64,000 nucleotides of DNA from the NCBI RefSeq assembly GCF_040954835.1, contig NC_090697.1:26591001-26655000 (forward strand), written 5' to 3'. Position 1 is the stretch's first letter. Each line of letters begins with the position of its first letter. A model generated the notes under the pieces. That model did not search any database. It was given only the letters and a program-made list of their open reading frames with translations, and was not told the origin of the DNA. The position numbers were made by a program, and so were the translations under genes. Below, in pieces: positions 2,408-5,014 of this stretch. Origin of the DNA: Lepisosteus oculatus (Eukaryota > Chordata > Actinopteri > Semionotiformes > Lepisosteidae).

Positions 2408-5014
2408 TTACAGCGCGGATTCAGCTGCGTGTGAAAGAATGAAATTAAACAGCAACGAATACAGTTCATCCTTAGCAACTTTGCTGTTAAAGATGTTAGT
2501 GGAAATGTCATCAAAAGTGACCTCCCTTATACACACCCCAAAGTCGTAGAGTTTTGCCAGACACTGGTGAACTAAGTCTTTTAAAGCATCTCCTGACAAG
2601 TTATTGCTTAATGAGTACGCAAGGGGCAATTTCAAGTTTCCATTTACAGTGACCAGCAGGAAAACCAAAGCTTCACTTGCAGCAGAGTCCTTGGGGGTAC
2701 CCCCCAATGGGTCCCCCAACTCAAAATCTTCCTCATTAGAGCTGTCCCAGTCCAGATCTGCCTGAACAGTCCCACCATTGATGCGGAGGTAAAACTCTGT
2801 GTCCTGCAGGGAGTACCCGCTGAGCCACTTGAAGAGTTCCTCTTTGAAAGGATGGCCAGCTGACACATCTGCCCACTCCCTCAGCACACTGGGGTGGGGG
2901 AGATCCAGGTGCTGTTCTACATATTTGTAAGCCTCTGGGGCATGTAAGTGCAAGGTGAGGCAAAAGTGCCTGGACTCAAAGCTGTAGTAGCGGCGGTGAA
3001 GGGTCCTGGATTGAATCCTCATTTCTTTCTTTAGGGCTTTTAAATCCATGCCACCCAGGGTGCTATCTATAACATCTGAAGCCAAACCAGACGGTACGAG
3101 TTTCTTTCTCTTCAGGCACGTCATCAAGTCTCTCATCTCCGCCCAGCGCATGCCCAGCCTGCGCTCCCGCTGCTGGCTGGCTTTCAGCTTCTTCCTGGCT
3201 GCCTCCAGCTGCTCCTTGAGGTCTGAGATCTTCTCTTTGGCCGCCGAGAGGCTGACCAGACAGTAGCTGTGGTCTTCGTACACATTGACAGGCTGGGCTG
3301 GCTGCTCAAGAGGGGTGGAGATGGGGGCCAGTGCTTTTCTGCTGGTGGCAGTCTCCCGAGGACTGGACGCCTACAAGAGAGAATCAACAGGAAGGTAGCA
3401 GTGTTAGGAAAAGAACAGGGACTGTTTAGCAATGTTGAAAGAATCATATTTTCTCTAAGTGTTTACAAAGGTTACTGTTTTTTCTTACACCTTTCTTACT
3501 CTTTTTCTGCTCTTTCTTTTTGGCTGATTTTAGGACAGTTTGAAGATACCACTTTTGTCACATTATGATGCCATTAGTAATGAGAGAAAGTCCAATTTAA
3601 TCCTTGAAGCAAAACTGAGTATCACATACATGCTCCTTGCTAGCATTCTGGTTTTGGAACCAAGCTTCAGTAAAGTACATTGTACTCCAGTATACTCATA
3701 TTTACTGGGGGTGTAAAAAAATATCTTGACTCGGTTGGATAAAAACAAAACCAAAAATAAAAATCAGCTTGATTGTACTCGTCAACTAGGGCAATAAAAT
3801 CATGTCTGATACTGTAGTATTTTCTAAGAATTAGCTCTAAATATTAGCTTTCGGGAATCGTATACTGAATCAACAAACAAAACATTACCAACTTTACCTT
3901 TTTGTGTTTCTGTCCTGGGAAATCAAAGATTGTGGGCACAGCATCTTCTCTCAACCTCACAGTTTGGCCCGTTCGGTCAAAGCATGATGCCTCGAAGTGA
4001 TTGGAGCAGAGAAATGTGTAAAGAGAAGGAATGAAATCAGCCCTCCTGACATGTCGAATCCATGCAGTCCTCCTCTCCTTGTTCAATGGGAATCTGGGTG
4101 GTTAAGAAAACATTTGCAAAAATGTTGTGTTAATCCAACAGGCTCGAGTCAGCAACCCATACTAACCCATTTTGAGTTATACAATGCTTTCCAAACCTAA
4201 AATGATTTTTTTTAAATATGATACTCTACAAAATTCAGGGAGCAGGATGACAACAAAATATTCAGTAATTACACCATTTGAGGTTAAACAGAGAATCACT
4301 TGGTCTGAGAGATTTTTTTTCAGCAGTGTCAGATGGGTTATTAAAAATGTGATATAATTAGTATTGTTGACATTTACACACATGGGAATCACAATATTTA
4401 TATAACTCTGGATACAATTTCAATGTGGTATCTTTCTCTATAAACATTTATATGATCAAAAACAGTTAAACAGGTGACAGTGGTCAGCATAACTGCCTTA
4501 CAGAGCTGGCGCCCTGGGTTCAATTCCTGGGGTGCTATCTGTGTAGAGTTTGTATGTTCTCCTCATGTTCATGTGGGTTTCCTCCCAATTCGAAAGAATT
4601 GCTGGTGGGAACAAAGATTCTGGGAAAACTGGCCCTGGCATGTGTGTGTGTCTGTGTTTGCCCTGCGATGGACTGGCGTCCCACCCAGAATGTATCCTGC
4701 CTTGCACCTGCTGCATGCTGGGATAGTCTTGGCTGAAACGCATGCAGCCTAATAGCAAAGCACTTCATGGTTCGTGCCATGATTCAATTTAATTTAAAAT
4801 AGCACAGTGCAACCCAAAGCATCTAAGTCAGCTCTATTTTCATAATCAGCTTGCAAAAGAAGAAAACCTACAACCTACAGCAGTTACTCAGCTCATAATA
4901 TTTCAAGCACCAGCTTTGTTAGAACAAAGTAAACGTATCCTACCTGTGAAAACTCACACCGCAGTCCTTAGTCCTGATGTTAGTGCAGCCGTATGCAGCG
5001 CAACTCGTGGGCAT
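2408..5014 (-). CDS. THAP2-like protein fused to a truncated P-element/THAP9-type transposase domain (3 exons)
   Basis: Exons (minus strand): 5014-4944, 4093-3898 and 3370-2408, with GT-AG junctions and matching phases. They give 1230 nt and 409 residues, stop TAA. Exon 1 begins [10 protein letters not shown]. The THAP zinc finger has C5, C10, C53 and H56, with W35, P26 and an AVPTIF box at 75-80, closest to vertebrate THAP2. Residues 122-125 (DHSY) fit the HCF-1-binding motif [DE]HxY. A Lys/Glu-rich coiled coil follows at about 132-170. From about 218 to the end the protein resembles the P-element/THAP9 transposase: [27 protein letters not shown] and [14 protein letters not shown] proteins bind DNA and many regulate transcription. 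Human THAP2 is about 228 residues and lacks the transposase part; THAP9 is about 900. Here the RNase H-like fold is cut short, and a predicted catalytic Asp position reads Asn (N287), so transposition activity is unlikely. The start ATG is the first codon of a canonical THAP domain. A SINE lies in intron 1. It could be a domesticated gene or a recent chimera. Confidence 0.85.
4471..4745 (+). mobile_element. tRNA-derived SINE (type I) in THAP gene intron 1
   Basis: A-box-like GTGGTCAGCATAACTG and B-box-like GGGTTCAATTCC are followed by GTAGAGTTTGTATGTTC, GGGTTTCCTCCCAAT, CTGGGAAAACTGGCCCTGG and CCCTGCGATGGACTGGCGTC. It is antisense to the THAP gene, within its first intron. Confidence 0.85.

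Follow-up and report, generated by a model that had tools for sequence, protein, structure and literature searches.

The 64-kb stretch of Lepisosteus oculatus DNA analysed here, referred to below as the window, contains a THAP2-like gene on the minus strand with a coding span of exactly 5014-2408 (window positions). Three exons specify a protein of 409 residues and both introns have a GT donor and an AG acceptor, which bears out the THAP2-like gene that a sequence-only reading had proposed for this interval. The exon ends fall at c.71 and c.267 (Lys89). Exon 3 is a single open frame of 320 codons, and none of 2000 mononucleotide shuffles of it stayed open. The gene lies head to head with UTP25 on the opposite strand; the UTP25 start at 5436 is a presumed one, read from the expected N-terminus, the first piece alone giving no Pfam match. 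The features are listed in Table 1.

Table 1. Features of the THAP2-like gene and its UTP25 flank (window positions; residues are those of the THAP2-like protein).
Feature	Position	Strand	Description
Candidate poly(A) signal AATAAA	2388..2393	-	14 nt past the stop codon
C-terminal tail	2408..2491	-	27 residues without Pfam match, then TAA stop
Coding exon 3	2408..3370	-	963 nt with stop, residues 90-409; linker, DHSY, coiled coil, HTH, partial RNase H
Front of P-element RNase H domain	2492..2788	-	residues 284-382; PF21787 (TNP-like_RNaseH_N), 3.5e-17
P-element transposase HTH domain	2873..3115	-	residues 175-255; PF12017 (Tnp_P_element), 2.3e-13
Coiled coil	3104..3250	-	about residues 130-178; helix in low-confidence exon-3 model and alignment to provisional human THAP2 sequence
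DHSY	3263..3274	-	residues 122-125, read from the sequence
Coding exon 2	3898..4093	-	196 nt, up to residue 89; remaining THAP finger (C53, H56, AVPTIF)
Coding exon 1	4944..5014	-	71 nt, ATG to donor; residues 1-23 plus two bases of codon 24; C5 and C10 of the THAP finger
Candidate shared promoter	5015..5435	.	421 bp between the THAP start codon and the presumed UTP25 start codon
UTP25	5436..19354	+	two later exons by Pfam (PF22916, PF06862)

Elsewhere in the window, SINE-like dispersed repeat copies were found at 1243-1444 and 4473-4729, the second in intron 1 of the THAP2-like gene, both 67-86% alike to other pieces of the window. A minisatellite at 31674-32476 (31-bp units, 26.6 copies) lies inside a 364-codon open stretch and shows a 423-bp higher-order duplication with 97% matches. 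Another open stretch, of 172 codons (53198-53713), had no Pfam match. Rfam and ARAGORN searches of the window found nothing.

A Pfam search of the translated gene, the HMM check proposed along with the sequence-only reading, identified THAP, P-transposase HTH and RNase H domains, all three above their curated cut-offs. The THAP match (PF05485) covers residues 5-80 with 4.5e-18, scoring 66.2 bits where the cut-off is 23.9, and the C2CH finger with AVPTIF places the protein in the THAP family. Compared with PDB sequences, the finger was nearest to human THAP2 (7.5e-32, 114 bits), followed by THAP1 (67 bits) and THAP11 (22 bits); this ranking is narrow, since these three are the only human fingers in the table, THAP3, 5, 6 and others being missing from it. 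In the part encoded by exon 2, identity to human THAP2 was 41/60, and as a yardstick human THAP1 and L003, its likely counterpart in the Lepisosteus genome, were identical at 42/58 positions. Five THAP exons of the same genome (L001, L003, L005, L006 and L008; eight were retrieved among 22 other matches, L002, L004 and L007 standing outside the comparison) agreed with the window gene at 24-30 of 64-65 positions in this part. L005 has a stretch of ten residues in common with the window protein. A small eight-sequence tree paired the window protein with THAP2 (support 0.911).

Provisional human sequences were used for longer alignments; against published residue numbers they agreed at 7/7 positions for THAP9 and 4/4 for THAP1, and were one residue off at 2/2 for THAP2. 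Human THAP2 is 228 aa long. Its provisional sequence aligned colinearly over 203 residues (1-203) with one gap, 39% identity and 5e-49, and the THAP1 and THAP3 sequences aligned more weakly than THAP2 and THAP9. DHSY fits the (D/E)HxY motif of HCF-1-binding THAP proteins. The likeness of finger, DHSY and coiled coil to THAP2 noticed beforehand is upheld.

The P-transposase homology spans residues 175-382 and, at about 208 residues of HTH and RNase H matches, is slightly longer than the run of some 190 residues resembling P-element/THAP9 transposase that had been described from the letters. The provisional human THAP9 sequence aligned colinearly over residues 1-376 (29% identity, 1e-39), with D304 and D376 of the window protein opposite D304 and D374 of THAP9. 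Changing D304, D374 or E613 in human THAP9 lowers excision and integration (excerpt of PMC8230255). The window protein ends 33 residues past D376, too early for the gene to encode the third catalytic acid, the GTP-binding domain or the C-terminal domain; of the features of an active P-superfamily transposase, the DDE triad is incomplete and the GTP-binding insertion is missing. At the place of the aspartate of the canonical FDEM motif the window protein has N287, and the provisional THAP9 sequence likewise has no aspartate there.

Searches beyond Pfam added no relatives. A single-sequence AlphaFold2 model of exon 3 reached a pLDDT of 41 and was set aside for fold searching. A phmmer search of the PDB with the HTH-RNase H part returned no P transposase, its best match being an unrelated one at E 0.71. 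No relatives of exon 3 were found in PHROGs or NCBIfam, and pattern matches in IMG/VR viral contigs (8) and GTDB genomes (26) included none that was confirmed. None of the 23 minus-strand ORFs of at least 28 aa lying wholly in 1-2407 matched Pfam, and the ORF at 2184-2420, which crosses the gene boundary, gave only a topoisomerase match below threshold (E 0.11).

It is quite improbable that the locus is no host gene and belongs to a multi-copy P-like transposon, either as one of its copies or as a decaying remnant. P transposases do share the domain order (excerpt of PMC7776569), zebrafish is reported to have at least 50 P-like sequences (excerpt of PMC10983969), and 6 of the 21 inverted-repeat pairs of at least 13 nt in 1-7500 bracket the gene. 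These six, however, have their far arm inside UTP25 (13-20 nt, 81-92%) and are taken as chance, and in none of the 21 does one arm lie below 2408 and the other in 5015-5435, so that terminal inverted repeats of this size close around the gene, as in a P-superfamily transposon, were not seen. Because no inverted repeats of at least 13 nt bracket it short of UTP25, the gene is probably no working transposon. A search of the 1.2-Gb genome (813 contigs) gave at least 23 THAP matches including the window gene, the window standing at G000:C2:26591001-26655000; such counts are lower bounds, and copies without the finger would escape the search. The scores were spread, with no set of equal scores and no obvious high-copy family, and the one other match with the 47.6 bits of the window gene, L008, is only 29/65 alike. 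Three THAP-exon matches fall within about 7 kb (G000:C3:7958544-7965615) and form a small THAP cluster. The 409 open codons and the introns at THAP1 positions also speak against a transposon copy. Of the two origins offered by the sequence-only reading, the younger capture, in which a P-like element would have inserted into exon 3 of an ordinary THAP2-like gene, or next to it, and that gene would have taken over the element's transposase half, is unlikely. It would suit a transposase part that is in frame with the THAP part within a single exon, a human THAP2 that ends before this part, and a Pfam HTH model that finds no match in the provisional human THAP2 sequence, whole or tail alone. Yet the element would have had to join exactly at the HTH, without a THAP domain or coil of its own, and no further transposase was seen among the 24 downstream minus-strand ORFs. 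The homology is moreover unbroken in P-transposase order and extends weakly into the tail of the provisional THAP2 sequence, whose residues 176-215 align with window residues 175-213 at the start of the HTH with a score of 37 (shuffles: mean 21.3, sd 3.8; 3/1000 reach the score).

Since the 203-residue colinear match runs weakly into the HTH, human THAP2 looks, from these alignments, like a shorter form of the architecture of the window gene. The older, longer form is thus the better supported of the two origins, on the grounds of P-transposase order, THAP9 colinearity and tail alignment, and the tail-HTH alignment together with the unbroken order favours a longer ancestor that would have been cut back twice, less in the window gene and more in human THAP2. 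No longer THAP2 was found in the literature searched on THAP2 with transposase, vertebrate or zebrafish, including an excerpt of PMC6402169. We give a probability of about 0.55 to a host THAP2-type gene of P-like transposase descent in which no more than the back half of the transposase is missing. Such a gene may show an in-between stage of a transposon turning into a host gene.

On the single side covered by the window the neighbour is UTP25, which is not known as a neighbour of human THAP2. Human UTP25 maps to 1q32; human THAP2 maps to 12q21, where ZFC3H1 and TMEM19 flank it. The vertebrate genome duplications left 12q21 and 1q32 as sister regions; a search of the paralogon literature yielded no paper on this pairing. 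A search of the window for SYT14 came up empty (best E 0.60). Because the neighbour is UTP25 and not one of the 12q21 genes, the window gene may just as well be a THAP2 paralogue, and the name THAP2 stands here for likeness and not for orthology. Well short of even odds, and so to be held tentatively, is an ancient second THAP2 copy from the early vertebrate duplications, kept beside UTP25 with the transposase half that THAP2 lost; if true, it would be a present-day intermediate linking P transposase with a short THAP regulator.

Two further alternatives concern expression and function. That transcripts terminate or are spliced ahead of the transposase part, the open frame being an untranslated relic, is distinctly unlikely: ATTAAA motifs are present in both introns (4793, 3601) and homology is lacking for the final 27 residues, but GTAAG and GTGAG, the two donor forms looked for, are absent from exon 3, an AATAAA follows its stop by 14 nt, and stop codons should have built up in 200 codons that were out of use. 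The other rivals the host-gene reading on function and not on structure. One truncated transposase of Drosophila, the 66-kDa protein, binds P DNA and acts as a repressor, and the KP protein, of 207 aa, is likewise a repressor (excerpt of PMC7776569). The window protein retains the same front parts and could as a truncated transposase bind P-like elements and block transposition; such a repressor would be the main functional rival, yet with a finger close to that of a host THAP protein, and with DHSY, its chance is slim.

P transposase binds DNA with its THAP domain, dimerises by a coiled coil and touches the terminal repeats with its HTH (excerpt of PMC7776569). With these domain roles, and with DHSY resembling the HCF-1 motif, a dimeric promoter-binding regulator appears the likeliest function of the host gene. 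The protein presumably made from the three-exon gene would dimerise through its coiled coil and bind DNA by the THAP finger, perhaps by the HTH too; DHSY would recruit HCF-1, the protein acting as a regulator of transcription, and the RNase H part would be a catalytically dead remnant. In human THAP2 the same architecture would have been trimmed more, leaving roughly 40 residues at the start of the HTH region. The best reading is of a putative DNA-binding regulator, domesticated and catalytically dead, in which a remnant of the transposase persists.

The transposase origin of THAP genes other than THAP9 rests mainly on the common finger. A THAP2-like gene with an in-frame HTH and part of the catalytic domain would reveal how truncation proceeded, could be given a date from its occurrence in other species, and would let a possible role of the remnant be tested.

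Among known systems, human and zebrafish THAP9 and P transposase have the same order of THAP, coil, HTH and RNase H (excerpt of PMC7776569), but they carry the third acid and the GTP-binding and C-terminal domains, all three of which the window gene lacks, and differ from it also in that no inverted repeats of at least 13 nt were found around it short of UTP25. Human THAP1 has both introns at the positions of the window gene, with a donor after c.71 and a variant c.267G>A, p.K89K (excerpt of PMC8039296), whereas its exon-2 part is only 25/57 identical and it has no transposase part. The P-element 66-kDa and KP proteins of Drosophila are, like the window protein, shortened transposases with a DNA-binding front (excerpt of PMC7776569); they are made by P elements, whereas the window gene resembles a host gene with THAP1-type introns. 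Human THAP2 has the closest finger among the PDB structures, and its (D/E)HSY, coiled coil and part of its tail are colinear with the window protein, but it has different neighbours and, in its provisional sequence, ends about 50 residues past the coil with HTH and RNase H no longer recognisable.
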